From Adineta ricciae (lineage: Eukaryota > Rotifera > Eurotatoria > Adinetida > Adinetidae), in NCBI GenBank assembly GCA_905250025.1, contig CAJNOJ010000415.1, positions 1 to 64,000 on the forward strand: a DNA stretch of 64,000 nt, written 5' to 3'. Below, piece by piece: positions 3,124 to 36,485 of this stretch. The first letter of the stretch is position 1, and each line of letters starts with the position of its first letter. The notes beneath the pieces were generated by a model, which was not told the origin of the DNA, searched no databases, and worked only from the letters and a program-made list of their open reading frames with translations. The translations under genes and the position numbers were made by a program.

Positions 3124-4731
3124 CTTCAGTTAAGCTTTGGAGAGTTTTGAGAGTGCAGTAGTATTTATAATGTTAACATGAATAGATAAGAGAATTTTTG
3201 CTTATTACATCTTACTAGGGGAATAAACACAAGATGATGTTAGTATGATGCAATGTTCGTCTAGTTCGCAGCTTTATAGATAAAGAAAAGGTATCGCCAC
3301 ACAAATCTGATAGTTGGAAATTTTCGAGATTCTTGTGTGTCAAGTCCTTATATAGGAATACTTTGAAAACTATCGGGTAATACAGCTCTAGCGATGTTAT
3401 AACCTACGATTAATTTGTGGAGCTCTCTAATTATCTTTTACTGCATAATCTCAACTATTCGCTTGGCTTCAATGCAACAAAAAATATTTTTGAAGCTAAC
3501 GAATTGAGAAAAGGCAGAAATTCATATATATAGTAGTGCGACATCACAAAAATTTATGCGATGAGTGACAAGTAACTTGCCGATTATAGTTCTTCAGCGA
3601 ACAACGTTGTGTAATTTTACGTCACAATTCACCCAATTTTCTCTAAACAAATCCAGTCAGTGATCACTCGGCCTTCAATGAACTTACATAATTCAGCGAT
3701 CAATGGTTTCAAAATTAATCATACTTGTGTAAGGTAGAATTCTCTTCCTCTAATCACAACAATAGTTCTCAATAATCCTCATTCTTGAGTACATGACTTT
3801 CAGCGCCCATTCAGTTTGAATTGTATACTGATTTACTAAACAGTGGACATATTTTTGGTAAAATGCGATGTGTCATACGTAGAGATCTGGATTGATTTCG
3901 GAGAAAAGATATTCGTGAAGTATTGGTAGAACCAATAATCTCTTTCGTTCAGACGAGCGATTCTCGTGACTTTTATCGCGGTTTGATTTCCTGAAAATGC
4001 TTAGCTGTTGAATAAGCCTTCCATTTATCACGAAAATAGATGTGAACATCGAGAAAGTCATTTTCATCATGGGATAATTCAACGTGTTCTGTAGACAATA
4101 GATTCTCTATGTAATTCTCAATCTATTTTTTCCTATGCGAATACCGATCACATAATTGTTTACCAACGACTATGACGAAAAGTATGTTTAAGAATGTAAA
4201 AATGCACAGAAATCTCTTCGAATCCAATTTTCTCCTTCACTAAATTGGTCTGCAGCACCAACACAAATTGAAACTCATCTCTTAGACAATCGTAAGTAAA
4301 TTCCTGCGATATGAAACAATCGAGTCTATTGGAAATTATCGGCCTGCCATAGAAAAAAAGCTCAAACAATTTGCACTGTCATCGTGCGCAGTCTTTTTTT
4401 CTCACTCTTTTCTTGTTCTCTTAATAAAGTTCACTTTCAGTAAGGTCATAGAACTGCACGAGGAAGAAAGTTAACAACGAGCGATTGATAGAAACGTAAA
4501 TAAACCAAACGAAAAGTATTTTACTGAATAAAGGTATCTGAATATGTACTAAATTTATTCATAATATGCTCAGTCCATCGAAGTTCAATCGTAATTGCCT
4601 TATGTTGGAAAATACCAAGTGCGCCGATCGTCTCCATGGCACCAACCGATAAATAAAAGAGAGCAGCGAACGTTTTTCGCCGTTTAGAACACGCACAACT
4701 CACACGTTAAACAGTTACTTACAAAACGCAA
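3124..4731. other. Intergenic region; duplicated block starts at 3704
   Basis: No gene could be supported. From 3704 (aatggtttcaaaattaatca) onwards the sequence is repeated with few differences at 13075, marking the left edge of the duplicated segment. Short open frames here, such as one at 3873-4082 on the minus strand, persist in both copies but look like no known protein and show no clear splice structure. Confidence 0.6.
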
Positions 4732-5696
4732 ATGCCGGTATTTCATACAATAGCATCAAAAGATATATGGTTGGGTGATCATGTATACATTTGGTCTTCT
4801 GTTTTTCATCAACATCACGGCATTGTAATATTTGTCGACAGAAACGATCCTGATGAGTCACAAGTTCTGGAATTCAGCACATATGATGGCAGTCGTAAAC
4901 CAAATCGTGCTCGTATTCAAGTTGTTAGTTTAAAACGATTTCGAAAAGATTGCAGCTTGAAACGTGTTGTTTATGGCTCTCGATATGCTCGATTTAAAAG
5001 AGCTGGTACCGCTTATGAATCACAATGTCTCGCTCCGGAAATTGCTGTTGACAATGCTCACCTCGTTCTCGAACAAATCAACTATGGTGATGGTTTCATA
5101 GAGCCCAATAATCTGACAAAGCCATGGACTGCAGAAGAAGCTCATGGATACAACTTATTCATAAGGAATTGTGAATGTCTTGCTTATTGGTGTAAAACGG
5201 GCCGGTGGATTAGTGCACAAGTAATACAGTTAGTTGAAAATGTTAGCAAATATCTTCTTGCAATTATCAAAGCGATTATCGACTCATTAGTACGTGAAAA
5301 ACTCATTCCAAGTATTGGCCAAGAAGCTTTAAGGTTAGATAATTAGAGAATCGTATCGCTCATCATCTTATTTTCTAGTGAAATGATTGAATCGATATTA
5401 CCAGCATGTTCATCGAAATTCTGTGAGATTCTGAATGATAGTGTAGGAAATGCTATTGCATTCATTGCTATCGAAGCAATCAAACCTTGGCCAGTGTCGT
5501 GAAAAGTTTTACCATAGGTGTGTTTGCATTTGCTATTCAAGCTCTGCTCACTTACTTGACGTACGGCGCTGCAGGAATTACGCCTTGGATTGGAGGATTT
5601 ATCGGAAGTTTGATTGGATTCGTTGTCGGTGATTTTCTTGGTCGTTTAGTTGTTAATGGCGTTGCACAACTAAACGATGCATTCTTTGCCAATTAA
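4732..5696 (+). CDS. LRAT-domain protein (NlpC/P60-like thiol fold), copy A
   Basis: Exon 1 (4732-5333) holds an LRAT domain: the GDHVYIW start, a His-rich HQHHGIV motif near residue 30 (catalytic His) and an NCECLAYWC motif near residue 145 (catalytic Cys). LRAT-type enzymes are membrane-associated thiol acyltransferases or phospholipases. Two small introns fit well: 5334-5378 (gttaga...tctag) and 5423-5517 (gtgaga...catag). They join a short second exon and a third exon (5518-5696) coding a Gly-rich, very hydrophobic tail ending QLNDAFFAN. An alternative donor at 5441 also keeps frame. Without splicing the protein would stop at 5346. The hydrophobic tail resembles the membrane anchor of other LRAT/HRASLS proteins. 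The substrate cannot be told from sequence. Confidence 0.75.
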
Positions 5697-5986
5697 AAAT
5701 CAATATTTATCAGTTTTTTTATTATTCAAGACTTTAGTCTAGATTTCGATACAAATGCATTGACTTTCTTTATCAGAATAAACTGGATTGATGACTCATC
5801 AAGGTTCTTGCATCATCGAGTGACGTCATTTATGTTGAAACTATATTTCTATTTTCTTTTCCTTTATTCTTCGACATATCAACTTTCGATTGATTCGCTA
5901 CCGAATGTGTTGGACAAAGGTAAACATTTGAATTTGAAATTCAATCGCCGTTCAGTACTTCATTTTAATAAGAATTTCATGAAACA
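5697..5986. other. Short intergenic region upstream of the eIF5-like gene
   Basis: No gene or clear element was seen. It separates the LRAT-like gene from the same-strand eIF5-like gene and should hold the latter's promoter. Confidence 0.4.
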
Positions 5987-7296
5987 ATGACGCTAACGAA
6001 TATCAATCGTGCAATCGAAGATCCATTCAATCGATACAAAATGCCGAAACTTGTCGTTCAAGTATTTTCGTTTTTGGGTAGGAAAATTCGTTAGAAAAAT
6101 TGTTCTTTTTCCTGTAGGTGATCAAAGAACGAAGTTCTTTTCGAACGATTTTGGTTAATCTATCAGATATCGGCAAAGCTCTTCGTCGCTCACCACAGTG
6201 TAAGTGCAATTCTTTGGAATGTCGACTCATTTCTTCGAAATTCTTCTCAGATATCATCAAATATTTGGCTTTAGAATTAAATTCCTCGATGAAAGTCAAT
6301 AACCATTCGAATCAATACATCATTCTAGGAAATTACAATCCGGAAACATTACAAAATGTGTTGGATGGATTTATTAAACTATTTGTCTTATGTAAAACTT
6401 GTGAAAACCCTGAAACAGATTTAGTAAGTGAAACTTGACATCGTGCAAACAGTTTTGTTTGTTCTTTTAGGATTGCGATGAGAAGGGACTTTGTCAACGA
6501 TGTTGTGCTTGTGGTAGTACAAGAGAAATCACAATCGAATGCCATGAATTAGTGAAATTTATTCGTCAAAATTGGTCGGAAGATGAAAAGAAGAAGAATC
6601 AGTACTATTGGAATCAAATAATCAGTTTTCCAGAAGAAATCGATGAAATTTCTTCACAGAGTATTTCTTCTGATGAAGATTGGGATGATGATGATGATGA
6701 ACAATTCGTTGCTTTATTTCAAGTTTGTTTGTGACGAAATTGAAGTTCGCGTTTAATTCAATGAATTTAGAGAAAGAAATTGTCGGACCAATTGAATGAC
6801 TTGGTTTCAATTGAAGAATTAATCAACGAAGCAAAAAGATTGAACATGACGACAAAGGCTCCGTGTCTCATCGCGAGAAACTTATTTACAAAGGAAATTC
6901 TCAAAGAAATTGATGTATATGAGGTGTTACTATCTCATTTTTGTCAAAATCATGAACAACAATACTCGTTATTAGACGGAATCGCAATGTTCATCTGTTC
7001 GAACGAAGAAATTCACGAAATCTTCTCGAACGAAAAGCAAATTTCCACGATTTTTTATAAATTATACGAAAAAGACCTGATCGACGAAGACGTTTTCTAC
7101 GATTGGTATGAAAAGGTAAAAAAACGCATCTCTGAGCGATCCTGTTCGATTCCAATTGTTTGTGATTTAGGAGTCCAATCGAACAATTCAGAAGACCATA
7201 GAAACAGACACTCATGAATATGCAGAAAAGTTCATCCAATGGTTAAGAACAGCTGACGAAACAGACGATGATGAGACTTCTATAGAAGTTTCTTAG
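5987..7296 (+). CDS. Divergent translation initiation factor eIF5 homologue
   Basis: Six exons (5987-6077, 6128-6199, 6251-6423, 6471-6722, 6771-7115, 7171-7296) give 352 residues. The N-terminus has the eIF5 signature DPFNRYKMP, with Arg16 matching the GAP arginine finger of eIF5. The zinc-ribbon lead-in DGFIKLFVLCKTCENPETDL is nearly invariant in the family and is followed by a second Cys pair (CCACG region). An acidic linker (SSDEDWDDDDDEQF) precedes a C-terminal W2/MIF4G-like HEAT domain ending in DEDVFYDWYEK and FIQWLRTADE. eIF5 stimulates GTP hydrolysis by eIF2 and then holds eIF2-GDP. The protein is shorter than the roughly 430-residue animal eIF5 and quite diverged, so it may be a second paralogue. 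Its last 17 bp overlap the end of the convergent amine oxidase gene. Confidence 0.85.
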
Positions 7297-9077
7297 CAAC
7301 TTCAACACCAGTTTCATACGCTGCATTGACTATGCCATAAGAATCTTCATGAGTCGCTTCGCCAGCAAAGAAAATCCTCGGAACCTTAAACAAGATAAAT
7401 TCATCTATTTACTCAGAGAATTTCCTTTTAAAATCTTACTCCATCCGGTGCATATGGTGTTTTTAATTCTCTTCTATGTTGTTTAGTCGAATTCAATGCT
7501 TGATAAGAGTAAGATCCTCGGATATATTTGTTATTGAACCATTGACTCCTATGAAGAAGAGAATAAAATGTTAATGAAGAGAATGTCTTTGATTTTGACG
7601 TACCGGAACACTTTTATTGGTTTGTATTGATTTTGATCGAGGCGAAGATATCGACAGAGAACTTCATGACAAATTTGTCCGAGGGTTTGCTCGTTTAGGT
7701 TCTCAATTTTGATTGCTAAGGAATCGGCGAACCAACAAGTTAAGATTGGAATATGTGTTGATGATAAACCTCCATAAAAGTGAAGTGAATTGGCAATTTC
7801 TTCAATCAGATGTTGACCAACTTGTTGAGAATGAAGTTCTGCTCGTAATTGAGGAGATAAATCGTCGAGTCGATACGGTTGAGTATGTAATAGTTTCATA
7901 TAATTAATATTATTTGGCCAAAATCTCTCTTTGTAAATGATAACTACCTGAAAAAGAAAATTTTTATCGAGAAAAGCACGAGTCTTCATGTTGAACTTTG
8001 TTTAAGATTCCAAAACCGATTTGATCAATTGCATTTTGTTTTTGTTCAATAAGTAACCGTTCACTTGCAAAGATTCTTTGAAAATTTTCTTTCAAAAATC
8101 CCAATGAAGTTGTCCAAATGATTTGATCACACAACATAAATTTCTTCTCTTCAGTTCGAAGATCAACCATCTCAACGAGTAATTTCCTTTCTCTTTCCAT
8201 GTATTTCACACGTTGAACTTCGCAATTCAAACGAATTTGTTTCTCATCGGGTATAAACGACCTGAGATAGTTTATAAACGGTCGATAACCACCATTTTTC
8301 AATTCGTTTTCATATTCACCCGGTGGATCTCCATATCCGTTGTATTCTATTGAAACGATAACAATCGTATGTATATTTCAGGATGAAATTTACCGAGTAG
8401 ATTCAAATTCGACAGGGAACAAGCACTATCGATCATCTCTGAATTGATAAAACAGTGAACAATTGGTTCGATGAGATCCCGAGGAAACCGTGAGGATGAC
8501 AATAATCGCTGTCGGAATTGTTGTGGAACGAAATCCGCAAAAGATACTGGATGTTTCACTTTTCCACCACGAAACTTCTCATCGACATCATCAATCGATC
8601 GTTCCCAGAAATCTTCGGCTTTATCATTCCATTCCGAATCAAAAGTTCTCCCATCTGTCGTGATGACCATTGTTTCTATATGAAGAAAATAGAGGTGTTT
8701 TTGAGAAAAATGACGATTATTGATATACCATCGTTGATGCCTTTGTCATTCAGAAGCATGTGTAAGTCTTTACAGATCTTATACAGTTTCGATTTATTCC
8801 CAACAACATATTGAGCACCCTGAAAATACAAATCGACTTTTTCTTGCAAATTTGATTGTTATTTTACCATATCGAGAAACAAATTCGATCCTACAAATGA
8901 AATATAGAAAGAGAAAGTTTTATTTCAATAAGTTTTACCGGCATCGATTGTAGAAATTCGACCACCGAGATAATTTTGTGCTTCGATTAATACAAAATTA
9001 ATTTTATTCGATAAAACTTTCGCTGCAGCAAGACCAGAAACACCTCCGCCCACAATAATCACTTGAGTTTCCTCCAT
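7280..9077 (-). CDS. Flavin amine oxidase (spermine/polyamine oxidase-like), copy A
   Basis: Eight exons (8939-9077, 8868-8890, 8729-8819, 8394-8675, 7997-8346, 7604-7947, 7440-7548, 7280-7384) splice in phase to 480 residues. The N-terminus has the FAD-binding GGGVSG motif at residues 10-15 followed by LIEAQNYLGGRI. DMGAQYVVG matches the substrate-channel start of SMOX/PAOX, and the C-terminus has RGSYSYQ and the FAD-contacting FFAGEATHE. These enzymes oxidise spermine or acetylpolyamines with O2, releasing H2O2 and an aldehyde. Exon 2 is only 23 bp. The stop codon lies inside the last exon of the convergent eIF5-like gene. I cannot separate spermine oxidase from N1-acetylpolyamine oxidase activity. 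Confidence 0.85.
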
Positions 9078-9463
9078 AGTTTAACAAAAATATTTTACAC
9101 TTGTATCAATCATACTCATTTCATTCTTTCCTCCGTCTAAACATGATTTGACAGGAAGGTAACCAATCGAAGTATTTCATTACCATTAAGGTCTCAACAG
9201 TAGATGAACATTTACAAAATCAATTTCATGTATTCAATATTAAACTTTTACTGAAAGATACTTCTTATGTAATACAGTGTGATCTTTTCTTTTCTTTTCA
9301 TCACTGCCACGTGCGTTCGAGTTTGTTATTCTTTTTTCTCTCTTCTACAAAACGAAAGAACGTCATCAAACCTTTTGCGTTCTCTTGCTGTTACATAACG
9401 AGGGAAAAACAGCGTTACGTGATATAAATATGTGCCGTGCGGTACATTAGTGTGATTTTCATC
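9078..9463. promoter_or_regulatory. Shared divergent promoter between amine oxidase and DHRS12-like gene
   Basis: A 386-bp gap separates two divergent start codons. It contains a palindromic E-box CACGTG at 9310-9315 and a TATA-like tataaata at 9423-9430, 34 bp before the ATG at 9464, which suggests a very short 5' UTR for the plus-strand gene. The regulatory role is inferred. Confidence 0.4.
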
Positions 9464-10642
9464 ATGTCGTTTTATCGCACTGCTGTTTTTGGAGCTAAAG
9501 GTCTTTCGGAGTATACTCGGTCTGGTTTTGAATCGGCTGCTAAACGGTTCAATCAGGCCGATACCGAGGTCGATTTAACTGGGACACATGTAATGATTAC
9601 TGGAGCGAATTCGGTATGTTTTCTTTTTGAGAAGAAATGTTCGAATAGTTACATGCTTGATTATAGGGCATTGGCAAAATAACTGCACTGGAATGCGCTA
9701 AACGACAAGCTCATGTTTATATGGTTTGTCGGGATGAGACACGAGGAAAAGAGGCTCAAGAGGAAATTATACAAAAGTCGAACAATCGTAATGTTGATTT
9801 ACATATTTGCGATTTGTCGCAACCGAAAGAAGTTTTGAAATTTGCGAGAAACTTTGTTCAATCGAAAAAACCGCTCAACGTAAGATATTTTCTGAATGAC
9901 TCAAAAAGAATTTAGCTGATTTTCTTTAAAGATTCTATGCAACAATGCTGGATGCATGGCCAATGAGCGACAATTGGTTGACAATGAATATGAAGTGAAC
10001 TTCGCGACGAATACACTGGGAACGTACATTTTAACAAGCAATTTCATACCAATCCTTATGAACAATCAACCTGCTCGCGTGTTCACAACAAGTTCAGGAG
10101 GTAAGTGGAAAACATTCTTTTGAAATTCGAGAGGCTTCTTCGTTTCGAATTAGGCATGTTTATGTGTCGACTGGATCCTGATGACTTGAATTCAACGAAA
10201 ATGAGTTCGTTCAACGGTGATCTCGTCTATGCACAGAATAAGCGACAACAAGTGGTGATGATGGAACGATTTGCACAACGATATCCATCGATCTTCTTTG
10301 CTAGTTGGCATCCCGGTATTATATTGTTAACAATATAACAGACTTGACGGAATTATTTTCTTTGTTTCAGGTTGGGTAGATACACCAGCTGTGCGTACAT
10401 CAATGCCATCTTTTTACTCGAAGATGCAAAATCGACTTCGCACACCCGAACAAGGGGCGGATACACTCGTATGGCTTTGTTGCTTGAAAGATATTGCGAA
10501 TCGATTTGCCAATGGTGAATTCTTTCAAGATCGAACTGTTGTTTCGAAACATTTACCATTAGCATGGACAAAATCGAGTGTCGAAGACGATGAGCGACTC
10601 ATGAACAATCTCGAGGAAATCTGCAAGAAATATTCCCAGTGA
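9464..10642 (+). CDS. DHRS12: Short-chain dehydrogenase, DHRS12-like, copy A
   Basis: Five exons (9464-9613, 9667-9879, 9932-10100, 10154-10315, 10371-10642) encode 321 residues, close to the length of animal DHRS12. The N-terminus MSFYRTAVFGAKGLSEYT is typical of that subfamily. The NAD(P)-binding TGANSGIGK is completed across the first intron, followed by CNNAG, the active-site serine region TTSSGG and the catalytic YAQNK. The C-terminal part GEFFQDR...HLPLAW also fits. It is an oxidoreductase whose physiological substrate is not established. It shares a divergent promoter with the amine oxidase gene. Confidence 0.88.
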
Positions 10643-10897
10643 TGTGCAGATTCTTCGATAAATATGTTTTTCTTATATCTATACCTTTGTGTCGAACATA
10701 GATTAATCGCGCAAATAAACATTGAAAGATCATCTTTATTACTTTAATTCAATTTGGATCATATGTGTATAGGAATTCAGACCTGGCAGCCATACGACTT
10801 TTCTCCGTCAATCTGAATTTTCAAAATGTCACATGAAAAGTGCAAAAGAAATGTTTATATCTCGAGTATATGTAGTTGATAAACGAAATTCATACAG

Positions 10898-12907
10898 TTA
10901 CTCTGAGTGCATCATTTCAGTGTTATAGAGAAGCAATGTATCGATTCTGTTCTCGCGAAGATTTAACGAAAGAAGTCGCTAGATGAAAAATAGCAATAGA
11001 TTCATTATAATTAATTAACAAAGATAATACGCTATACCCTATTTTGTCGTAATAGACTGATAAATTTTTGTGCCCCAGGTTCCTCAATAGAATTTCCACG
11101 TAGATCAAGTGATTTCAGTGACTAAGTCAGCGAAAAGACCAAAAGATACACAGACTAAAAGAAATGAAACATAGTATTACTGTATTAGATAATAATGCAA
11201 TTGCTATGGCTTGACTTCCTTGGTCTAATACTTGAGTTTTCGATATATTTAATGTGATAAGTGTCTATATCGATTGAAAACGAAATGAAGAGTGAAAGAA
11301 CTCAAATGTAAAGTATATCTATACTGTTGTGTAAGGTAACGCATCAGCTAAGAACTCTGCTCCTTTAATACCAAGGTTATTTCCACTTAGATCCAATGTG
11401 ATTAGTGTCTATCAAAAGAAATCAAATTGCATAACAAGATGTTCGAAAACACCGATGATACGAACGTTATTTTGCTTTAATGCATCAGAAAGGTATTGCG
11501 TTGCAGTTACTCCAAAATAATTATTACTCAGATTTAACGACTGAAGTGTCTAATTGAAAGAAATATGGAATGATATTTAGGAAAAAATACTACACGATGA
11601 ATACTACCGTACTACACATAAACATTGACGCAATGTATTGCATTCCGCTATCTTCAATCTCAGTAAATTGAAGATTCAATGTAGTGAGTGTCTATGGGCA
11701 GAACAAAGGAGTGTCAATAGAAATCTTTCTAGATGTACTTTATTGTCTTCTAATGTTTCGATTATGTATCGTATTCCGTCATTTCTGATGCTGTTGAATG
11801 GAACATGAAGTGTCTCGATTGTCTAAATAAGGAGAAGTGAAACTATCGAATTTTGAGAGTAAATTCAATCATTTTCACTAAATTGGATTGTAATAGTGTG
11901 GCTAAATGTTGTACGCCCAGTGGTCCAAGCTGATTATTTCCAAGGTGAAGCGTAGTAAGTTGCTAGAATAGACAATCACTGGTAAACGAAAAAAAAAGGG
12001 CACATGAGAAAATGATCTTTACTGTGCATTTTGACAAGAGATCAATCAAATTTTGCAGCATATCGTTTTTAAGGCGTGAGTCGTGAAGATCGAGTGTTTT
12101 GATGGTCTACAGACAAAAGTCATCAATTTACGTTCAGAAAATGTGGAAAACTCCAATTTACGATATCATCAGATAATGCATCCGCTAAATCTTGGATTAC
12201 TTGTTTATCAATGTGACATTCGCTAAAATTCAGCGTCATCAGAGTCTATGTGAAAAAAAGTTCACAAAGATCACAAACGCATAAGCAAGAATGATTTCAT
12301 ACCGTAGTTTCAATATCGTTCGAATTTTCAATTAAACGACAGACACTGCTTACTGGCACAGCTTCACATCTAATCAATGGTCCATCCTGATTCACACAGA
12401 TTGATTTAGTATAAACCGCGATCTGCTTTGATTTTATAAAATGATCGCAAATAGTAAACCATCGTTTGTCCTGTAACCAAAATGATGTTCGAAATGAGGC
12501 AATAATTGAATTAACACTGTGCACAATGCCATTATCTCGAATAGGATAAGTAAAACGAAATTCAAAAGTTTTCAGTTGCGGAAAACCAATTTGAATAAAT
12601 TCTTCCCAAAATGAACCATTAAACACAGGACCATACACTGATCTCGTAGACATCAATTTCAGATAGGTTAATGATGGCACTGTGGTAAGTACTAAGCGAA
12701 AATGTTCCATTAACAGATTGCATTTAGAAATAGTTAACGACGTTAATCGTTCATATTTTTGAACTGAATTAATAGTTTCATTAGCGTTTTCCAGTTGAAA
12801 ACAATCGATGACAAATGTCTTTAAATTTGGTAAGGTACGAAGAATAAGATGATATTGAAAATAATTGCAATTCGAAAGTTGTAAATATTGAAGTGTAGAA
12901 TGAACTG
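10898..12907 (-). pseudogene. F-box/LRR gene 1, copy A, 3' part, interrupted by an insertion
   Basis: Read leftwards from 12907, this is the second half of the F-box exon (to 12303) and then ten LRR exons. Nine are 84 nt long, in phase 0, each coding one 28-residue RNI-type repeat (TLxTLxLxxNxIxxxGxxxLxxxL). The gene is cut at 12907 by a GC-rich element; its 5' part lies at 26864-27268. Compared with the intact copy at 16580-19011, the last exon lacks 24 bp (8 residues) between two ATCGAT motifs. If the scaffold order is wrong, this is a single allele broken only by the element. F-box proteins normally link Skp1-Cul1 ubiquitin ligases to substrates. Confidence 0.7.
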
Positions 12908-13073
12908 CCCATGTGAAATTTTTTTGAGTGTAAACGCGTTTAAAACGCGTTTGGGATGCGTTTCAAACGCAAGGCACAAACGCACCAAACGCGATGGAAA
13001 TGAAACATTTCATGCATCTAGATGCGTTAATCAAACACATCCAGACGCGTCTTTCAGATGCGTTCAACCGCGT
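12908..13073. mobile_element. Left half of a GC-rich foldback/MITE-like element
   Basis: The sequence starts cccatgtgaaa at 12908 and is dense in acgcgtt-type motifs, unlike its AT-rich surroundings. The matching right half (26684-26863) ends ttacatggg, so the termini are inverted repeats (CCCATGT). The dinucleotide TG precedes the left end (12906-12907) and follows the right end (26864-26865), whereas the intact copy B has a single TG at this point, as expected for a 2-bp target duplication. No coding capacity is visible. Confidence 0.65.
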
Positions 13074-13074: not shown

Positions 13075-14105
13075 AATGGTTTCAAAATTAATCATACTTG
13101 TGTAAGGTAGAATTCTCTTCCTCTAATCACAACAATAGTTCTCAATAATCCTCATTCTTGAGTACATGACTTTCAGCGCCCATTCAGTTTGAATTGTATA
13201 CTGATTTACTAAACAGTGGACATATTTTTGGTAAAATGCGATGTTTCATACGTAGAGATCTGGATTGATTTCGGAGAAAAGATATTCGTGAAGTATTGGT
13301 AGAACCAATAATCTCTTTCGTTCAGACGAGCAATTCTCGTGACTTTTATCGCGGTTTGATTTCCTGAAAATGCTTAGCTGTTGAATAAGCCTTCCATTTA
13401 TCACGAAAATAGATGTGAACATCGAGAAAGTCATTTTCATCATGGGGTAATTCAACGTGTTCTGTAGACAATAGATTCTCTATGTAATTTTCAATCTATT
13501 GTTTCCTATGCGAATACCGATCACATAATTGTTGATCAACGACTATGACGAAAAGTATGTTCAAGAATGTAAAAATGCACAGAAATCTCTTTGAATCCAA
13601 TTTTCTCCTTCACTAAATTGGTCTGCAGCACCAACACAAATTGAAACTCATCTCTTAGACAATCGTAAGTAAATTCCTGCGATGTGAAACAATCGAGTCT
13701 ATTGGAAATTATCGGTCTGCCATAAAAAAAAAGCTCAAACGATTTGCACTGTCATCGTGCACAGTCTTTTTTTTCTCACTCTTTTCTTGTTCTCTTAATA
13801 AAGTTCACTTTCAGTAAGGTCATAGAACTGCACGAGGAAGAAAGTTAACAACGAGCGATTGACAAAAGCATAAATAAACGAAACGAAAAGTATTTTACTG
13901 AATAAAGGTATCCGACTATGTACTAAATTTATTCATAATATGCTCAGTTCATCGAAGTTCAATCGTAATTGCCTTATGTTGGAAAATACCAAGCGCCATG
14001 CGATTGTTTCTATAACATCGACGGCGAAACAAAAAGAATCGTGAGCATTTTTCCCCGTTTAGAACACGCACAACTCTCACTTTAAACAATACTTACAAAA
14101 CACAA
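13075..14105. repeat. Copy B of the noncoding region upstream of the LRAT-like gene
   Basis: This is collinear with 3704-4731, with scattered substitutions and small indels; the last 120 bp before the ATG are more diverged. No gene was seen. Confidence 0.85.
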
Positions 14106-14723
14106 ATGCCGGTATTTCATACAATAGTATCAAAAGATATATGGTTGGGTGATCATGTATACATTTGGTCTTCTATTTTTCATCAACATCACGGCATTGT
14201 AATATTTGTCGACAGAAACGATCCTGATGAGTCACAAGTTCTGGAATTCAGCACATATGATGGTAGTTGTAAACCAAATCGTGCTCGTATTCAAGTTGTT
14301 AGTTTAAAACGATTTCAAAAAGGTTGCACCTTGAAACGTGTTGTTTATGGTTCTCGATATGCTCGATTTAAAAGAGCTGGTACCGCTTATGAATCACAAT
14401 GTCTCGCTCCGGAAATTGTTGTTGACAATGCTCACCTCGTTCTCGAACAAATCAAATATGGTGATGGTTTCATAGAGCCCGATAATCTGACAAAGCCATG
14501 GACTGCAGAAGAAGCTCATGGATACAACTTATTCTTAAGGAATTGTGAATGCCTTGCTTATTGGTGTAAAACGGACCGGTGGATTAGTGCACAAGTAATA
14601 AAGTTAGTTGAAAATGTTAGCAAATATCTCCTTGCAATTATCAAAGCGATTATCGACTCATTAGTACGTGAAAAACTCATTCCAAGTATTGGCCAAGAAG
14701 CTTTAAGGTTAGATAATTAGAGA
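14106..14723 (+). CDS. LRAT-domain protein, copy B, cut by a gap
   Basis: This is the first exon of the LRAT-like gene (coding to 14707, donor gttaga at 14708). By hand count it differs from copy A at 16 of 602 nt, 12 of them changing an amino acid. The catalytic His region (HQHHGIV) and NCECLAYWC are unchanged. Exons 2 and 3 are missing because the sequence stops at the N at 14724. Confidence 0.8.
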
Positions 14724-14724
14724 N
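14724..14724. other. Assembly gap (single N)
   Basis: The left flank matches copy A up to about 5350 and the right flank matches copy A from about 7666, so about 2.3 kb present in copy A (LRAT tail, the whole eIF5-like gene and the amine oxidase 3' end) is missing here. Confidence 0.95.
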
Positions 14725-15866: not shown

Positions 15867-16290
15867 GATCTCGTCTATGCACAGAATAAGCGACAACAAG
15901 TGGTGATGATGGAACGATTTGCACAACGATATCCATCGATCTTCTTTGCTAGTTGGCATCCCGGTATTATATTGTTAACAATATAACAGATTTGACGGAA
16001 TTATTTTCTTTGTTTCAGGTTGGGTAGATACACCAGCTGTGCGTACAGCAATGCCATCTTTTTACTCGAAGATGCAAAGTCGACTTCGCACACCCGAACA
16101 AGGGGCGGATACACTCGTATGGCTTTGTTGCTTGAAAGATATTGCGAATCGGTTTGCCAATGGTGAATTCTTTCAAGATCGAACTGTTGTTTCGAAACAT
16201 TTACCATTAGCATGGACAAAATCGAGTGTCGAAGACGATGAACGACTCATGAACAATCTCGAGGAGATCTGCAAGAAATATTCCCAGTGA
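15867..16290 (+). CDS. DHRS12: DHRS12-like dehydrogenase, copy B, 3' fragment
   Basis: The end of exon 4 (to 15963) and exon 5 (16019-16290) are present, including the catalytic YAQNK and the C-terminal HLPLAW region. It is almost identical to copy A (for example T to A after VR, N to S after KMQ). The 5' exons are lost in the gap. Confidence 0.85.
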
Positions 16291-25296: not shown

Positions 25297-26275
25297 TCTA
25301 ATATCGTTCAGATTTTCCTACTTTGATCGTGCAATGCTCTACAACAACAACAACAGAGATTTGAATCACGACTTTTGATTTACTAAATACAGCATGGAAA
25401 TTATGTGTAATTTTCAGTGTAACTGGAATGAGGTTGCGTCAGAGAACGATACCATCATTGTATTTTCACCCTTATCCTTAAGAATAATCGTAGATGTATT
25501 TGTGTGTGCGTTTGATAAATGAAACTGAAAACTTTTGCGAGTTCTCTTTCTTTCTCTCATATTTGAATAGAAACGTATGTATCGTATCGTAGCTTTCAGT
25601 CATCGTTTTCTCTAATAAACAGATGTCACTACCGATCATAAATTTTATTTCTCGAATGCTGCATTATTCTCTTCTCTCAAGACGTCTCCTATCATTGATG
25701 TGTAATGTTGCGAATGTAGATGTACCATCATCATCCCTTTTTCTGTTTCTTTGCCTTCTCGTACATGTCAACCTAGTATAAATGGACGAGAAAAATCGAT
25801 GTTCTTCGTTTTCGATAAAATAATTAAATATTCAAAATATGTGGATGAAAGATTGAGAAATAGTTAGTTTTGCTGAACATTGTTCTTGATATTTTACGTA
25901 GATGAAGAATTGTGTAACTGTCTTATGTCTTTCACATGCATTATTAAAACACTTTTTCCATGGAAACGCGGAAATGCCGTGTGATTGTCCAAAGCCGCAT
26001 ATTGTATCATGCCGCGGCTTTGTAATACTTTCAAGATCTGCCCTACTTATCTATTTGCGTTTCAACATAATAGCTTAAACGCGATAGAGATGGAAAATTC
26101 GATGTATTACATCGGGTTTTTTCCAACATATTTTTTCTCAATCTGAATTGCGTTGCATCATCGTCAATTGCGGAATACGATAAGAACAGAAGAAAATTTT
26201 TTCAACGACGAATACGAGTGTTGGAGAGAACTATTCTTTTCATTATATTCTTTTTCATCGAAAACAAAGGCATAC
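25297..26275. other. Intergenic region, copy B
   Basis: This is collinear with 33537-34509. The sequence is AT-rich with tracts such as tctttctctcat; no gene or clear motif was found. Confidence 0.5.
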
Positions 26276-26596
26276 ATGTCTTCTACCGTGTCAGAACTAC
26301 ACCGAAAGAGAGGAAATCAATTTTTCGCTAAAGTAAAACAAGAAGAAAATGCTGCACCGGTACTTCGTCGTGGTCGTCTCGATGATGCTTTAAAATCCTA
26401 TAATCAAGCATTAGCTACAAGTACTACCAATGACGAATATGCGTCGGCCTATAAAAATCTTGCTGTACTACACGCCTATCATGTTAATAATCCAGTCAAG
26501 AACTTAACAACTGAAAAAGATGTTCAATATTGTCAGAAAGAGTGCATCAATTCATTCGGACAAGCATACACATACGGTAAAAAGACTCATTGTTAG
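26276..26596 (+). CDS. TPR-type protein, first exon, copy B
   Basis: The ATG at 26276 opens MSSTVSELHRKRGNQFFAKV, then a TPR-like helix pair (DDALKSYNQALATSTT, YASAYKNLAVLHAY). The exon probably ends at 26576 before gtaaaaag; otherwise the frame stops at 26596. The rest of the gene is missing because copy B ends at the N at 26683. After about 26637 the sequence no longer matches copy A. Copy A of this exon carries a 55-bp deletion, so only this copy has an intact start. Confidence 0.6.
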   Translation: MSSTVSELHRKRGNQFFAKVKQEENAAPVLRRGRLDDALKSYNQALATSTTNDEYASAYKNLAVLHAYHVNNPVKNLTTEKDVQYCQKECINSFGQAYTYGKKTHC

Positions 26597-26682
26597 AAAG
26601 TATACAGTGATCTAGATTCTAGAACGCACATAGGCAATTTTTTTTTCACTACTGCCCTGGTTTTCACAGTTATTACGAAGCC

Positions 26683-26683: not shown

Positions 26684-26863
26684 TCTGGCCGCGGTTCTTA
26701 GGTTCTACCGCGTTCAGATGCGTGCATAGGATGCGTCTGACCACGTTTGATAATTCTATCGCGTTCGGACGCGTTCATAGGATGCGTCTAGACGCGGCAC
26801 TACACTATGTGAAACACCAAACGCGTCCAAACGCGTTTTTTTTGCGTTTCAGAGTTACATGGG
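26684..26863. mobile_element. Right half of the GC-rich foldback/MITE-like element
   Basis: The sequence is dense in acgcgtt and ggatgcgt motifs and ends agttacatggg, the inverted complement of the left terminus at 12908. It is followed by TG (26864-26865) and then the missing 5' part of the F-box gene. Confidence 0.65.
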
Positions 26864-27268
26864 TGGTTGTATTATTTTGTTGATCAGAGTATTGGATTGA
26901 AAAGCTTGGCTTCGTAATTCACTCGATCTTTCACTGAACGTAAAACTCAATGACTTCAGACGCGAAAATCGTCGTATGTCGAAGTTTTCGAAAAATGGAT
27001 AGATTCCAAAATCTGTAAATATATCACTATCGGAGACAACGATCGAACTAACGTTTTCAAATGGAATTTGTCGAGCGATAAGTAACCGATCGCTCCAAGA
27101 AAACGACGAGAAATTCAGTTGAAATCTATTATAAGACTTTATCATACTGTATGTTCTTTTACATACTGGACGAAGGGCATAGATAATAGTCATTGCATCG
27201 AGTCGATCGAGAATACTGTGAAATAGTTCAGTTGGTAGATCAACAAGATTGATATTCATCATGGACAC
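26864..27268 (-). pseudogene. F-box/LRR gene 1, copy A, 5' part
   Basis: This begins MSMMNINLVDLPTELFHSIL at 27268 and runs to the insertion at 26864. The sequence continues exactly where 12907 stops when aligned to copy B. Joined to 10898-12907, it makes one F-box/LRR gene split by the element. Reading on into the element ends the protein after about 137 residues, so a product without LRRs is all this allele could make if the element is not spliced out. Confidence 0.7.
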
Positions 27269-27752
27269 GATTTTTTTTTAGTGTGAATAATTGGATTTGT
27301 GCGAAAAAATAATGTATACGACGGTTTAAATAATCAGTAAAAGAGCAACGTGATGCAAGAATAAAGTTACTAATGAGAAAGAGAAAGTTGTTTTTCTTCT
27401 CTTGACTCTTTTTAACAACAGAGGAAGAAAACAAATTTTACATACACACGTGGTATCAGACCGTTATGAGTAATATTGTGCAATACTAGAATTTCTTATA
27501 TTCAAAGAAGAAAGTAGTACGAAAAAATGGAGATAGGGCGATCTTTCAATTTGATTCCGTATTCATTTTTAACCGGAATGCTTCGTATTATTTGTTCATT
27601 AACTCTTACAAATAGGACGCATAGTCCCGAATGTTTGTGTAAACAGCTCGAACAAAACAAAACAAAACATGTTTGAATTTGCTAAGATAACAACGCTGTT
27701 TATATTGATCTTTCCGTTTCGATCCTTCCATTTACGGGTGTGTTCATTAATC
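27269..27752. promoter_or_regulatory. Divergent intergenic region between F-box/LRR 1 and channel gene, copy A
   Basis: The counterpart of 19012-19510, slightly shortened by a small deletion near 27570. No defined element was recognised. Confidence 0.35.
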
Positions 27753-29403
27753 ATGGAAAGCGTCATCGGTGAAACACAACCAAAATCATTTGTACAGCAG
27801 CGTCGTCGGTCAATTGTCATTGATTATCTGCTTGCCACCTCAACACATGGATTACGAAGTGTGGGTCGCGCCTATTCGGCTTGGAATCGTTGTTTCTGGA
27901 TACTGATATTTATGACTGCTTTTGGTCTCATGCTTGTTTTTGTTGTGTCATCCATTATCGAATATTTTAACTATCCGACACAAACAAGCACTTTAATTCG
28001 TCTCGATCGTAAGATGCCTTTTCCAGCCGTTACTGTTTGCAATACGAATCCATATCGACGAGATAAACTGAATGAATCACTTGTCAAGTACTACTATCAA
28101 CAATTTCCGTCGAATTCATCGATTAATTTGAGCGTTTTCGATACGCTCGCAATAGCACTCATCGTTGATTTGTTCAATAGTAATAAAACGGAAGAGCTCT
28201 CGCTCATTGGTTTTCAACTTAGCGACATTCTACTTGGCTGTCAGTTCAACGGTATTGACTGTTCGAATTCATTCACACGCTCGCTTACATCAGGTCTCGG
28301 TAATTGTTTTACGTTTAATTGGAAAACATCATCACCGTTATTTACACTAGCTGATTTTGGCAATAGTTTTCTGTTGAAAGAAGCTCTTCAGCTAACGTTT
28401 TATGTTCCACGCGAATCCAGTTTTCCCGCTGACTATTTCAACATCGGTATCAATTTGCTGTTACATGACAACGAAGAATTTCCATTGAACATCGAAAATG
28501 GTCTTACTCTTGCACCTGGCTTCGCTCATTTGATCACTTACCGTAAAAGTTTAGAAACCTATCTTCCACATCCATATAGTGCATGCACATCAGCAGTATC
28601 TGACGACTTGCGTGCTCTGTACAAAACTACGTACGGTGACACCAACATATCAGAGACAATTGTCTACTCAGAGTCAGCCTGCAACGAACTGTGCGGGCAA
28701 GCTTATATTTTTTCACAGTGCGCATGCATTCTACCAATACCATTCTTCGCGCGTTACGTTTTCAAACTCGACGGAAGTCTGGCATATGCGCGCACGTGCC
28801 GTCCCATAGCATCCGAGTTTGCATGTGCACTTGGTGCTAAGAAGCAATTTGCAGCTAGTGATGACTTACAAACCCTGTGGTGTGCTCATTGTACCTCTCA
28901 ATGTAAATATACACATTTCGCCATGGACATCAGCGCACAGGCCGCACCGTCCGATGCTGTGAAGGCAAGTTGGGCGACGACTCTTTTGAACTCAAACAAT
29001 ACGACCTCCTTTCTGGCACCTCCAGACTTTGCTCAACGTTACGATTATTATATGAATCAGAATTATTTAAGAGTAGAACTTGCCTGTGGGAGTAAATATG
29101 TTATGGAATACACACAAGAACCCAAGGTGTCATTTACTGATGTCTTTTCTTCCATTGGTGGACAGACAGGCTTGTAAGTCGATTCATCGATATGTTTTTC
29201 ATCGAGTCTCTTTTTTCTCTTGAAAAATATCTAGATGGATTGGTTTGAGTGTTCTGAGTATGATCGAGTTGGGCGAACTTCTCTTTCGACTCTTATGGAA
29301 ACATATTGTGCATTGGAAGAATAAGCAAAAAACTAGCGTTACACAAGTCGTTCAGTTTAACAATCAAAAGTCGTTAGAAACACCTGTTTGCACACTAGAA
29401 TAA
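27753..29403 (+). CDS. Amiloride-sensitive (ASC/ENaC/DEG) sodium channel subunit, copy A
   Basis: Two exons (27753-29173 and 29235-29403) encode 529 residues. The order is a cytosolic N-terminus with STHGL near residue 30 (the HG gating motif of the family), TM1 at about 47-69, FPAVTVCNTNPYRRDKL just outside it, a large extracellular domain with many Cys (CNELCGQAYIFSQCACILP; CAHCTSQCKY), then GGQTGLWIGLS, where G-L-S fits the GxS selectivity filter at the start of TM2. Such channels are trimeric Na+ channels gated by protons, peptides or force; the ligand is unknown. I chose MESVIGE as the start because it is shared by both copies; the frame is open 28 codons further upstream in copy A only. 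Confidence 0.88.
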
Positions 29404-29651
29404 ATATCAGAACAGTTTTTCAACCACCCATATATACTTTATGCTTGATGTAATCATATGAAGTCTTGCTTCTCTACACTGAAAGTGTTCTTCCTCGTTC
29501 GAATTGTAATGCAACGTTGCAATAAATATCGTATAAATTATTCTAGAGTGCCATTTACGACTAGTTGCTTCGCACATGTAGAACAAAAAAAATAAAATAC
29601 AAAAATAGTTTGGAATTACTTTAATCATAAATATTGGCCAAAATAAACAAA

Positions 29652-32600
29652 TTATTCGATTCTATTATCTTGTCTTTTCAATTCTTTTTGAACATCCGAA
29701 GAAATACCATTTAAGAGAAAGATGTTCAAAGCCTCGACTGTCTATATGTAGAAAAGGATATCAATACAAAAGCAACAAAAATCGGATAAAACCTACCGTG
29801 TTATATCTTAAGGCATCAGCGAAGTGTTTCGCTCCGATATCTTCGATCTTATTTGAGTCGAGAACCAGTGTAGTGAGTGTCTACATGGATAGAAAGTGAC
29901 TATAATATGACAGAGACGTTTTTTGTATAAAAATCACTGTGTTCTTTCTTAAGGCATCAGCGAGATATTGCGCTCCATTAGCTTTGATCGAATTGTTCGA
30001 CATATTCAATGAAGTAAGCGTCTATTTGTGGACGAAATGATAAATACGAATGAGATAGAATAGGCATGAAAACTACCCTATTGTCCCACAGTGCATCAGC
30101 GATATATTGAACTCCAGTAGTTCCTATATCATTCGTATCAAGATTCAAGGTGGTAAGTGCCTATATGTAGAGAGTAAGATACACTTCTCTCATAAGAAAA
30201 TAGGGCGACAATCACCTTGTTGACTCGCAGCGCAGCAGCGAGATACTGTGCTCCAGTTTCTCCAATATCATTGGCTCTAAGGTTCAATGTAGTGAGTGTC
30301 TGTGTGTACACAATATGACAGGCATATGGGAGATGAGAACAGAATTACAATTACCTTGTTAATCCGTAAGGCATCAGCGAGATGTTTTGCACCAGTGTTT
30401 CCGATTCGATTAAAGTAAAGGATCATTGTAGTAAGCGTCTAGATGTAGAGAAGAAGGCAAATATGCGAGAGAGACGAAAGCAACGCAAGTCAAACTATGT
30501 TGTTTCTTAAACCATGAGCGAGATATTCTGATCCAACATGCCCGAGTTTATTCATTTGAAAGATCAGTGTGGTAAGTGCCTATGTGGAAGAGACCTGATG
30601 AATATTTGAGCGAGAAAAATAGAATACAAATTACTTTGTTAGCCCCTAAAGCATCACCAAGACGTTTTGCGCCAGCGTTGCCAAATTCATTCCATTCAAG
30701 ATACAATGTAGTGAGTGTCTTTGCATAGATAAGAAGATGAATCTAAGAGACAGATGAAAATAGAATAATAATAATTACTGTATTCTCGATTAGAGCATCG
30801 GCGAGATGTTGTGTTCCAGCCGTTTCGATTTTATTGGCGCTAAGGTTCAATGAGGTCAGTGTCTACATATAGAAATGGATACAAACGAGAAAAGCTCAAA
30901 ATGGAATGAAAATCACCGTGTTAATAGTTAGCGCATCAGCAAGGTGCCGTGCCCCAGAATCACCAATGAGATTACCACCGAGGTTTAAAGTGGTGAGCGT
31001 CTATATGTCAAGAATAAATGTGAGAGACAGCCGACAATAAAATAATTTCACTGTGTTATTTCTCAGAGCATCAGCAAGATGCTGTGCTCCAGCTTTTCTG
31101 ATCTTGTTCCCATAAAGGTTGAGTGAGGTAAGTGTCTATAAGTAGAGAGTTGGATGGATGCTTGAGAGATGAAAATACGATAGGGCATCACTTTGTTATG
31201 TTGTAAGGCATTGGCGAGATGCTGCGCTCCAGTATTTTCAATTCCATTCCATTCTAGATTCAATGTGACCAGTGTCTGCGTACAGGAAAGAATATTAATA
31301 TGACTGTTACAAAAATAGAACGAAAATCACTGTGTTAGTTTTTAAGGCATCGGCAAAATATTGTGCTCCAAGATCTTCGATAGAATTGCCATCGAAGTGC
31401 AATGTAGTAAGTGCCTATGCATAGAATACAGTGAAGTGTCCGATATGGAAATAGAACAAAAATCACCACATTATTTCGTAAACCATCAGCAAGATGCTGT
31501 GCTCCTACGGAATCGATTCGACTGTAGTTAAGATTCAGTGTAGTAAGTGTCTATGTATAGAGAACAATCTGTGCATATGAGAAAAGATAGGAACAGAATC
31601 ACCTTATTATTCTGTAAAGCACCGCTAAGGTGTTGTGCTCCAACATTGCCAATTGTATTATTTGCGTTTTTTGAACAATCACTGCCGATGTCCAATGTGG
31701 TGAGTGACTATGTATAAACAAAATGATGAATAAGAGAGAGAGAGCCGAGAAAAAAAACAGCGAGCATCACGTTATTGGTTCGTAAGGCATCACTGAAGTG
31801 TTGTGTCCCCAGGGCTCCGATTAGATTGCAATTTAGGCTTAGTATGGCAAGTGTCTATGTTTGAAGTAAATGATGAATATAATTGAGATGAATGATTGAT
31901 GAGAATAACCTTGTTGTATCTTAGAGCATCGGAAAGATGTTGTGCCCCGACATCTCCAATCGCGTTGTATGATAGATTCAATGTGATCAACGCCTATGTT
32001 GAAAAATCAGGATGATGAAACAGAGAAAAATAGAATGATGATCACCGTGTTATTTCGTAAGGCATTAGCAAGATCTTGCGCACCGACATCTCTAATTGCG
32101 TTGTGTGACAGGTCCATTGTGATCAATGTCTACGTAGAAAAACGAGGGTGATGTGAGAGATCTTCAGATAGAACGAAAACTACCGTGTTATTCTTTAAAC
32201 CAATTGCAATATATTGTACGTGAGCATCTCTGATATCTTTCTGTAAAAGCACCAGTGTGGTCAATGTCTATGATAAAGAAAGTAGATAAGGGCGATGACG
32301 AAACGCCAAAGATTTCAAGATCAATAACTAGTTGGTTTCTCACTTTCTGCAAATTGAAATATTTGATTAGGCACCTACTTGATCTAAAGCGTGATCAATC
32401 ATTCTGTTCAGAGGTCGCTCAGTTAGACGCGAGGTATTGCCCATCGACGATATCTCAAATCTAAGTGCACTTCGTTGATCAATAATGGGATTAGGTACTG
32501 TGTAAAGCCAGATTTCATTCAGGATTGGCACGTAGGCCCAAGATACAAACCATTGTTTCTCGTTGAGCCAGAATGGTGTACGGAATGAGTCGATAAGGAA

Positions 32601-33536
32601 GTCGAAATCGATAAATTTTCTGTTGATGTGGTTGTTGTTATATGAAAAGAAGAATTCGAATCGATCTATCTTCAACATTTGGCCATAATCGAGCTGTTCC
32701 CAATAGGAACGATGGAACACAGGCTCAGACAAATCGAAGATAGAAACTAGTCTCAAACGACAAAGCGAAGATATCGGCGAAAGTATTAATTTCAACTGTT
32801 CTGGAGTACATAAATACGAATCAATAGTCAGAGATTCCAACGAGCAATAGATTGTGGGAGTAGGCAACACTACAGCTTTGTTCTTTTCGTTCATGATACA
32901 GTTCTGCATGACGAGCGTTCGTAATTTTGGCAACTGGCGCAGAATAAGAAGATATTTGCTGTAGACACAATTCCCGATGCTCAAGTGCTCTAGACTGCAT
33001 TGATCTGACCATGGCATATGTTCCTCCATGTAGTCAATATGACACATGTATAACTTTTGAAGGTTCGCGCGCATGATCGCTTCTAAGACAATGATCCATG
33101 TTTGATCATACTTTTTCTCGTTTGAGTGAATCGAGAGCGAGACTAACGACACACCACTCACACTTTGTAGCAGACGTTTCAAATCGTTATCTTTGATGTG
33201 CCTGAGAGTCAGCGAATGGAGACGAGTAAATTCTACGCTGGTGAACAACGAAAAGAATAATTTGGTTCCAATATCACACCAAGAAAAACTTTTACTGTCA
33301 TAATCCGCAATAGTAAGTGAAATCACTTGTTCGGATCGAACGATTCGGGAAACAGATTTCATGGTCCAAGCAGATTTAGAATTGAGTGTAATTGCGAGTC
33401 GATCGTAGGTGTTGACCATGGCATAAAGTGTTTGGCACACACCACGAACAGACAAAAGAATCGTTCGAATATCACAGTAGTCAAATATATGATGAATCAA
33501 TTCTGGTGGCAGCGTGGTAAGAGGCGAATTTTCCAT
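29652..33536 (-). CDS. F-box/LRR protein 2 with 18 repeat exons, copy A
   Basis: It has the same structure as 21441-25296: an F-box exon (32379-33536, 386 codons, donor gtaggt), eighteen LRR exons of about 84 nt in phase 0 (the first starting at 32267), and a short last exon. A substitution removes the TGA used in copy B, so this copy ends a few codons later at TAA (29652-29654). All repeats can be paired one to one with copy B, so repeat number is unchanged between the copies. The frame appears intact. Confidence 0.78.
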
Positions 33537-34509
33537 TCTAATATCGTCCAGATTTTCCTACTTTGATCGTGCAAAGCTCTACAACAACAACAACAACGGA
33601 GATTTGAATCAGGACTTTTGATTTACTAAATACAGCATGGAAATTATGTGTAATTTTCAGTGTAACTGGAATGAGGTTGCGTCAGAGAACGATACCATCA
33701 TCGTATTTTCACCTTTATCCTTAAAAATAATCGTAGATGTATTTATGTATGCGCTTTATAAATGAAACTGTAAACTTTTCTGAGTTCTTTTTCTTTCTCT
33801 CATATTTGAATAGAAAACGTATGTATCGTATCATAGCTTTCAGCCATCGTTTTCTCTGGTAAACAGATGTCACTGCTGATCATAAATTTTATTTCTTGAA
33901 TGCTCCATTGTTCTCTTCTCTCAAGACATCTCCTATCATTGATGTGTATAATGTTGCGAATGTAGATGTACCTTCGTTATCCCTTTTTCTATTGCTTTGC
34001 CTTCTCGTAAGTGTCAACCCAATATAAATGGACAAGAAAAATCGACGTTCTTCGTTTTCGATAAAAGAATTAAATATTCAAAATATGTGGATGAAAGATT
34101 GAGAAATAGTTAGTTTTGCTGAATATTGTTCTTGATATTTTACGTAAATGAAGAATTGTGTAACTGGCTTATGTCTTTCACATGCATTATTAAAACACTT
34201 TTTCCATGGAAACGCGGAAATGCGATGTGGTTGTCCAAAGCCGCGTATTGTATCGTGCCACGGCTTTGTAATACTTTCAAGCTCTGCCCTACTTTTCTAT
34301 TTGCGTTTGAATATAATAGCTTAAACGCAATAGAGATGAAAAATTCGATGTATTACATCGGGTTTTTACCAACATATTTTGTCTCAATCTTGAATTGCGT
34401 TGCATCATCGTCAATTGCGGAATACGATAAGAACAGAAGAAAATTTTTTTCAGCGACGAATAAGAGTGTTGGTGAGAACTATTATTTTTCATCGAAAACA
34501 AAGGTATAC
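33537..34509. other. Intergenic region, copy A
   Basis: Collinear with 25297-26275. Nothing recognisable beyond AT-rich and pyrimidine tracts. Confidence 0.5.
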
Positions 34510-36485
34510 ATGTCTTCTACCGTGTCAGAGCTGCACCGGTACTTCGTCGTGGTCGTCTCGATGATGCTTTAAAATCCTATAATCAAGCATTAGCTACAAG
34601 TACTACCAATGACGAATATGCGTCGGCCTATAAAAATCTTGCTGTACTACACGCCTATCATGTTAATAATCCAGTCAAGAACTTAACAACTGAAAAAGAT
34701 GTTCAATATTGTCAGAAAGAGTGCATTAATTCATTCGGACAAGCATACACATACGGTAAAAAGACTCATTGTTAGAAAGTATACAGTGATCTAGATTCTA
34801 GAAGCACATAGGTGTCATCAAATTCGAGCTATTATACTGTGATTTCTAATCACATACCATACGGACGGAATCTCTATAGTTTTTCTTCGTTGCATTTTGT
34901 ATACAAAGCTAATCGTTCGATTTTAAAAGTACAAAATCAAAGCGAAAGGAAGAGGGGAAAACAGTACAAATTAAAATGTAAAAGGAAACAAACGCAGACT
35001 TATTATGAATGCAATAGTAATAATGACAGAAAAGTGAAATACAGCAACCAGAAATACGAAAAAAGAGATGATCAAGTAATAGAGGCAGGTATAAGATGCC
35101 AACTCACAGCATATTAAAAGAAAATACTAACGAAGTTCGATATCATATGTACATTGAAGAGGTATTATAGATATTCTTCTTCTCTGCATTCGTATCCTCT
35201 TGTGTATTTTTAGGAAAATTATGCAAGTCGCAAGAATGGTTAAGTGTTCTGTATTGTCAAGTTGATGAGATGGTGTATGACCAGCACGCCGCTACGCTAA
35301 ACCTGCCTCTTGAACAACGTTTCAAAGTCTTGGATACGTTCGTGCGTTACTTTGAGTCTACTTCTCTCGCGGGGCAAGATTCAATAGCTGTTGTGTACTA
35401 CACACTAGCTAAACTATTGTTCAAGAAAGCAATCATGAATTCTGAACAATCACCTCGACTAATTTATGAATGCCAACCTTATCTTGAACGAGCTGTTTAT
35501 TGGGCAAAATCGCCGGATAAGTTTCAAACAGACGAAGTGGCTGAGTTGCGTCATAGTATTTGGTTGCATCAATGTACGTATGAAAGCGCAAACGCTCGGC
35601 GCGCTGGAAGCCGTATGTTAGAAGCACATCTTAATGGAGATGAACATTTGGATATGGATGTGATTTGGATAGTCATCGACAAATTTCGAGAATCGATTTT
35701 ACTCTCTCGTGAACAAGATGTTGAAGGTAAAATGAAATAGAACAATTGCTTAACGAGAAAATATCTAAGTACGAATCACGACTTCAACTTACATCCTTAT
35801 CCGTCAATGCTAAATAAGCAGCATTCATTATTTAACACCAGCGCAGTTTTACGCGGTAAAAAATATTGAGCAGAGTTTTTCTAGCTTATCCAATTTTGTA
35901 TTTGTTGATTGACTATTCCTCGCGAATTAGGCTCCATTTTTTAAAAGTCAATTTACACCATTTTATTTTATAGGTGAAGCAGAAGCTTGGCATCTTTCAG
36001 CCAAAGTTTATCAAAACGTTTTGAAAATGACCGACATCGCATACACATATCACTTACGTTGTGTTACATTAGCACAAACAATGGTGCCGCGCAATTTGAC
36101 TAGTATTAGCTGGTACGTATCAAGCAGCGCTTTTGTTCAGCAATACCGCCAGCGAAAGGTTCAAGAAGAAGAACTGGCAACTGAAACTGCCACCAAACAA
36201 TTACGCCTTGAATTAGCGTCAGAATTAGCTGCACTTCAAAAGCATGCTACAAGTGGTATTTCTGCATTTTAATGCCATATCTATAAAGCACACCCACCAA
36301 CTAAAGAAAATGCTACATTGGGCTCAACGGATGCCTCAGAGTTACAGAAAACGACCAAAAAGGCACTTCTGCATTATCATCCGGATTCACAGCCGATCGA
36401 CATGGACAAAAAAGCGAAATACTTGTGCTCTGAGATAACCAAAATACTTACTGTAAAATACACGGAATTGAAATTAAGCAGTTGA
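34510..36485 (+). pseudogene. TPR protein with C-terminal J-domain-like segment, copy A, probably broken
   Basis: The first exon starts at 34510, but a 55-bp deletion relative to copy B (after LHR) shifts the frame at once. Later exons include 35213-35728 (helical repeats around residues VYYTLAKLLFKKA and LIYECQPYLERAVYWAK, donor gtaaaatg) and one starting at 35974 (GEAEAWHLSAKVYQNVLK). The frame then meets TAA at 36270-36272. Beyond it the same frame continues with LQKTTKKALLHYHPDSQP, where HPD is the J-domain signature that stimulates Hsp70, and stops at 36485. A 36-bp intron could remove the TAA but would be unusually short. Part of the middle (34780-35210) could not be resolved. Confidence 0.5.

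Follow-up and report, generated by a model that had tools for sequence, protein, structure and literature searches.

A second haplotype very probably scaffolded into a transposon break of the first in an Adineta ricciae assembly

Does the repeated stretch of scaffold CAJNOJ010000415.1 (C415) in the Adineta ricciae assembly GCA_905250025.1 represent a real duplication on the chromosome, or two alleles that were placed on one scaffold by the assembly? The window analyzed here comprises 64,000 nucleotides and corresponds to bases 1–64000 of C415, which has a total size of 77,706 bp. It contains exactly five Ns, each of them single (13074, 14724, 15866, 20294, and 26683), and two further single Ns follow in C415 at 70621 and 72218. 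Self-blastn identified the four N-parted contigs within 13075–26682 as direct copies, in the same order, of 3702–12907 and 26864–34812 (Table 1), which reproduces both the repeated gene order and the breaks at these Ns that a preliminary description of the window had reported. The surrounding copy, divided into A1 and A2, is designated A and the enclosed copy B; the halves of A meet within a transposon that interrupts an F-box gene. The nested order A1-B-A2, the Ns at the junctions, the empty insertion site in B, the allele-level divergence, and further displaced pieces of B in the rest of C415 together indicate, with a probability of roughly 95%, a false haplotypic (heterotype) duplication that arose by scaffolding and is not a real feature. 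The second haplotype would thus have been scaffolded into the breaks of the first, in agreement with the proposal of the preliminary description.

The end of A1 and the start of A2 are the two ends of one repeated element, CCCATGT...ACATGGG. The left flank of A (...GAACTG) is followed by the element start CCCATGTGAAA..., on the right side the element end ...TTACATGGG is followed by TGGTTG..., and B reads ...GAACTGGTTG... at the insertion site, without the element. The presence of TG on both sides in A and of a single TG in B argues that 12907 and 26864 are most likely the two borders of a single insertion on the same molecule, with B as the uninterrupted allele. The inverted ends, the target duplication, and the empty site in B mark the element as an allele-specific DNA-transposon insertion, the middle of which is unassembled in A. 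Other loci of the element were counted if both ends occurred 150–2200 bp apart; four were found, three of which (C433, C143, and C552) have matching 2-bp flanks. The element is multi-copy and about 1.5 kb long; its inverted ends measure 7 bp, and its target duplications are mostly of 2 bp. It contains the motif ACGCG 17 times and is probably non-autonomous because its longest open frame, the sole one of at least 80 amino acids, has a length of 101 amino acids. The many genome matches of its ends would explain why contigs stop at the element, and among the matches listed three (C359, C564, and C290) are no more than 14 bp away from a contig end. Judged by its reading frames, the F-box gene is cut by the insertion in A and kept intact in B: the N-terminal frame in A runs two codons into the element and then reaches a stop. 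The earlier statement that the halves of A meet within one element and one F-box gene is therefore borne out by the element ends and the split frame. This allele-specific transposon insertion, which is of an ordinary kind, is the sole biological by-product of the analysis.

By blastn, B is 93.0–97.2% identical to A, apart from the 284-bp stretch at its right end, and it covers 13,426 of 17,501 A bases (77%) in 3702–34812, whereas 5350–7664 and 8805–10218 of A are without a counterpart. The twofold inflation of gene counts anticipated for the region holds for these 77% and not for the remainder. A recount in the LRAT exon gave the same 16 differences in 602 nt as before; the match to the LRAT domain is weak, barely over the cut-off, in both copies. 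Protein identity between A and B is 90–98.5% in eight coding stretches. The synonymous divergence (dS) in seven coding stretches is 0.031–0.143, and the ratio of nonsynonymous to synonymous divergence (dN/dS) ranges from 0.07 to 0.82 in seven stretches (0.07 for the sodium channel, 0.74 for the F-box C-terminal part, 0.82 for the LRAT exon); some genes look constrained, others hardly so. The sodium-channel (ASC) frame is intact in A and split in B at N 20294, where B3 and B4 both include A 28521–28533 (a 13-base overlap). The divergence between A and B is near the published median of 4.55% between A. ricciae homologs (PMC5916493); the preliminary description had remarked that an allelic or homoeologous divergence of a few percent is consistent with its reading.

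This value also bears on two other origins of B. If A and B were ohnologs of the ancient bdelloid tetraploidy, which are present in bdelloid genomes (PMC5916493), high divergence and degraded gene order would be expected, and the median divergence published for A. vaga ohnologs is indeed 24.9% (PMC5916493). A and B, however, are 93–97% identical and their order is kept. A search of the genome (130,461,839 bases in 1033 contigs, apparently those above ~10 kb) for further copies yielded as next best match after B for 18607–26682 one of 81% over ~1 kb in C898, with 70–77% in C444 and a lone 60-base match at 85%. For 5350–10218 the genome contigs contained only matches of 64–66% besides B2 (5 of 5 candidates scored), and no third copy was found in them for 16000–18000 or for 800–5349 (800–3701: 2 of 2 candidates scored). 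In the stretches searched, no third copy thus matches B in closeness; the F-box C-terminal part and A 10219–10351 were not searched separately. An ohnologous relationship is therefore scarcely credible. An origin of B from a second clone or individual in the sample, instead of from the homologous chromosome, has a next to negligible probability as well, as the divergence is near that published for A. ricciae homologs (PMC5916493), and 39% of the eukaryote benchmarking universal single-copy orthologs are complete and duplicated in the table for sample ARIC003, so that two copies are common (PMC7943196).

Table 1. Features of C415 and further copies of the transposon (positions refer to C415; the window comprises 1–64000).
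Feature	Position	Strand	Remarks
A1	1..13073	+	left part of haplotype A; stops within element; edge = N 13074
B1	13075..14723	+	= A 3702-5349; 95.9% over 1651 columns; fully covered; holds LRAT-domain exon
B2	14725..15865	+	= A 7665-8804; 97.2% over 1141 columns; fully covered
B3	15867..20293	+	= A 10219-12907 + 26864-28533; 93.0%, 93.7%; 4425/4427 bases covered; crosses A break point
B4	20295..26682	+	= A 28521-34812; 93.5%, 99.3%; 6294/6388 bases covered
A2	26684..64000	+	right part of haplotype A; N-free up to C415:70620
blastn pair	15867-18608 = 10219-12907	+	93.0%
blastn pair	18607-26304 = 26864-34538	+	93.4%
blastn pair	26351-26634 = 34530-34812	+	99.3%, 284 bp, right end of B
A sequence with B copy (B5)	39918..41505	+	copy at C415:70622-72217; 95.1% over 1600 columns; 1596/1596 bases covered
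A sequence with B copy (B6)	44606..50064	+	copy at C415:72219-77585; 4 collinear pieces, 84.7-93.2%; 4984/5488 bases of contig 72219-77706 covered
Element 5' end (CCCATGT) in A	12908..13073	+	164/166 bases identical to complete C433 copy; 17 genome match rows including itself
Element 3' end (ACATGGG) in A	26684..26863	+	29 genome match rows including itself, several rows from one copy
Empty insertion site in B	18607..18608	+	single TG; A has TG either side of element
F-box gene, uninterrupted, B	17998..19074	-	358-aa open frame, stop to stop; F-box PF00646 E 2e-06
F-box gene C-terminal part, A, beyond element	12297..12907	-	30/606 nt differ from B
F-box gene N-terminal part, A	26855..27277	-	16/396 nt differ from B; F-box E 4.9e-07
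Element copy C433			1508 bp; no N inside (only one such among the 4); flanks TG/TG
Element copy C143			459 bp, N inside; flanks TA/TA
Element copy C552			376 bp, N inside; matching 2-bp flanks (TG, or CA by strand)
Element copy C621			658 bp, N inside; 3' end differs; flanks not matching

The duplication had initially been delimited to 3704–34807, which proved too narrow, as B copies of 39918–41505 and 44606–50064 are located on C415 past the window. These contigs, B5 and B6, each start after a single N and are 28–31 kb distant from their homologs. Six of the eight contigs of C415 are consequently pieces of B in the order of A: four are located in the break of A, and the final two come after A2; all six are collinear with A, in pieces that are 84.7–99.3% and mostly 90–97% identical. 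All seven Ns of C415 adjoin a contig copying another part of C415. An N separates every B contig from A, and no repeat edge is more than 49 bp from an N, except within contigs and at the scaffold end. That each copy is set at a gap counts against a real duplication, which would have no reason for this arrangement. The double coverage of 36500–64000 over its full length that the preliminary description had presupposed is impossible, because 39918–41505 and most of 44606–50064 have a separate B copy; these stretches are expected at single depth, and the alleles may be collapsed where A has no B counterpart. None of the missing B stretches was found at >90% in genome contigs above ~10 kb, smaller contigs being apparently outside the search. 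Nothing but B5 exceeded 90% for 34813–44000 (25 of 25 candidates scored), and 50065–58000 had no match >82% outside itself among the best 40 of 117 candidates, B6 not being the target of this search.

A true tandem or insertional duplication, in which the B block would really sit within the element of A on a single chromosome, would be compatible with the direct orientation of the copies and with the open frames kept in both of them in the stretches compared. In the simple case, however, it would give the order A1A2-B1B2 and not the observed A1-B-A2. Moreover, B is fragmented with parts missing, both junctions (13074 and 26683) are Ns and no gap-free junction was found (an assembly gap alone proves no chromosomal gap), two more B contigs stand apart after the next Ns, and A2 opens inside the complementary end of the element of A1, with the matching TG. 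This explanation is thus very unlikely.

Single Ns are left by some scaffolding and gap-closing programs. To relate them to repeats, a single N was scored if it lay at most 10 bp from the edge of a direct repeat on the same contig (at least 200 bp and at least 85% identity), with longer runs of Ns excluded. Sampling covered 3 of the 1033 contigs, namely C415 in full, C416 over its first 60 kb, and a 60-kb stretch of C1; C416 had been picked as the next contig number before inspection, and C415, as the given case, is not independent. Five of the seven Ns in C415 were located at a repeat edge (random mean 0.058), the misses being 20294, at the overlap of B3 and B4, and 26683, whose closest edge is 49 bp off. 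The first 60 kb of C416 gave five of eight (random mean 0.053), and in neither contig was a value as high reached in any of 10,000 random trials. Three of the five edge Ns in C416 adjoin allele-like repeats (242 bp with 93.8%, 307 bp with 95.4%, and 1154 bp with 94.3% identity, the last ending at the limit of the sampled stretch). The methods published for these assemblies describe SPAdes contigs and several scaffolding routes, and that description leaves the route for the ARIC003 sample unnamed (PMC7943196). C416 also contains two places (32867–33309 and 42501–42943) where a single N has a 221-bp direct repeat on either side, which looks like a join of overlapping contigs left unmerged, and a run of 8661 Ns (46849–55509), which is far above the other gap sizes seen.

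A scaffolding origin of the duplication would imply the following course of events. The animal would carry two alleles of the region that are a few percent apart, each of which would have been assembled into contigs of its own. Allele A would have broken at the ~1.5-kb multi-copy transposon interrupting its F-box gene, and scaffolding would have set the B contigs, correctly ordered among themselves, into this break and would have appended B5 and B6 behind the following A contig. One chromosome would then in truth read 12907, element, 26864, and the B contigs would belong to its homolog. We infer that the scaffolding links came from reads common to both alleles, that all B contigs represent one haplotype, and that the unassembled element in A had the length given above. 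Certainty is highest for the separate assembly of two alleles, which divergence and order show, and decreases via the break of A at an element that B lacks and the joining of B into this break, which is shown by Ns and order rather than by reads, to the shared reads as the presumed source of the links.

Several observations weigh against this reconstruction. The last 48 bases of B4 (26635–26682) have no blastn match in A; an insertion confined to this allele, or else an error in gap filling, may account for them. Some of the dS values exceed the published median divergence, and B6, with an identity of 85–93%, is also more diverged than that median. Among the other two-ended copies of the element, the one in C621 has a different 3' end and flanks that do not match. 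The only single N sampled in C1 is not at a repeat edge (0 of 1), and two of the five edge Ns in C416 are near-exact 221-bp overlaps (99.5 and 100%) and not allele-like. A model in which the B contigs are bubble arms that end where the alleles turn identical was rejected, as it explains some ends at most: 170 identical bases at the start of B1, 93 at its end, and 124 at the start of B3 fit, whereas 13 and 18 at the ends of B2 and 8 at the start of B4 do not, nor do the right ends of B3 and B4. Were the two alleles truly linked in direct order on a single chromosome, much like the linked homologs reported for A. vaga in its early assembly, the ordinary pairing of chromosomes would be impeded in this region; such a linkage is regarded as exceedingly improbable.

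Further repeats were observed elsewhere in C415. A ~400-bp interspersed repeat at 360–760 has at least 39 other matches at 92–95% among the best 40 of 425 candidates, which suggests a fairly recent spread. The stretch 62189–66734 has a fragmented copy of 90–98% identity close to the end of C524, including an inverted 138-base piece beside an N (best 40 of 200 candidates). C415:66735–68894, which adjoins the end of this C524 copy, matches C431:34938–36568 with 84–89% identity, one part being inverted, and the C431 stretch contains no N.

Gene counts as well as calls of tandem duplicates and collinearity breaks are unsafe beside single-N gaps in this assembly. Linked bdelloid alleles have been taken as evidence of ameiotic evolution (PMC5916493), and such false joins can therefore mislead on a real question. 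The closest counterpart of the C415 arrangement is the heterotype false duplication or false gene gain described elsewhere, in which likewise the two alleles of a heterozygous region occur on one scaffold with gaps between them, and genes appear doubled or split (PMC9516828). The marks named in that study are gaps between the copies, haploid depth, discordant pairs, and one-copy k-mers (PMC9516828); C415 shows an assembly gap between copies on one scaffold and collinear alleles a few percent apart. The cases reported there were confirmed by read depth, k-mers, and linked reads (PMC9516828). C415 differs from them in that the first allele encloses the second within its break at a transposon, and further parts of the second allele are displaced by 28–31 kb. 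Uncollapsed haplotypes in Adineta assemblies represent the same kind of error in the same genus, although these cases concern long-read A. vaga assemblies and the 2018 A. ricciae assembly and not the C415 scaffold (PMC8178825, PMC5916493). For the latter assembly, many of the detected collinearity breaks were reported to span scaffold gaps, together with two linked homologous blocks, both tandem (PMC5916493). The palindromes and linked homologs of the 2013 A. vaga assembly resemble C415 in having homologous blocks on one scaffold; those blocks are mostly palindromes, whereas all repeat pairs of at least 200 bp in C415 are direct and its B copies are bounded by Ns (PMC5916493, PMC7749112).

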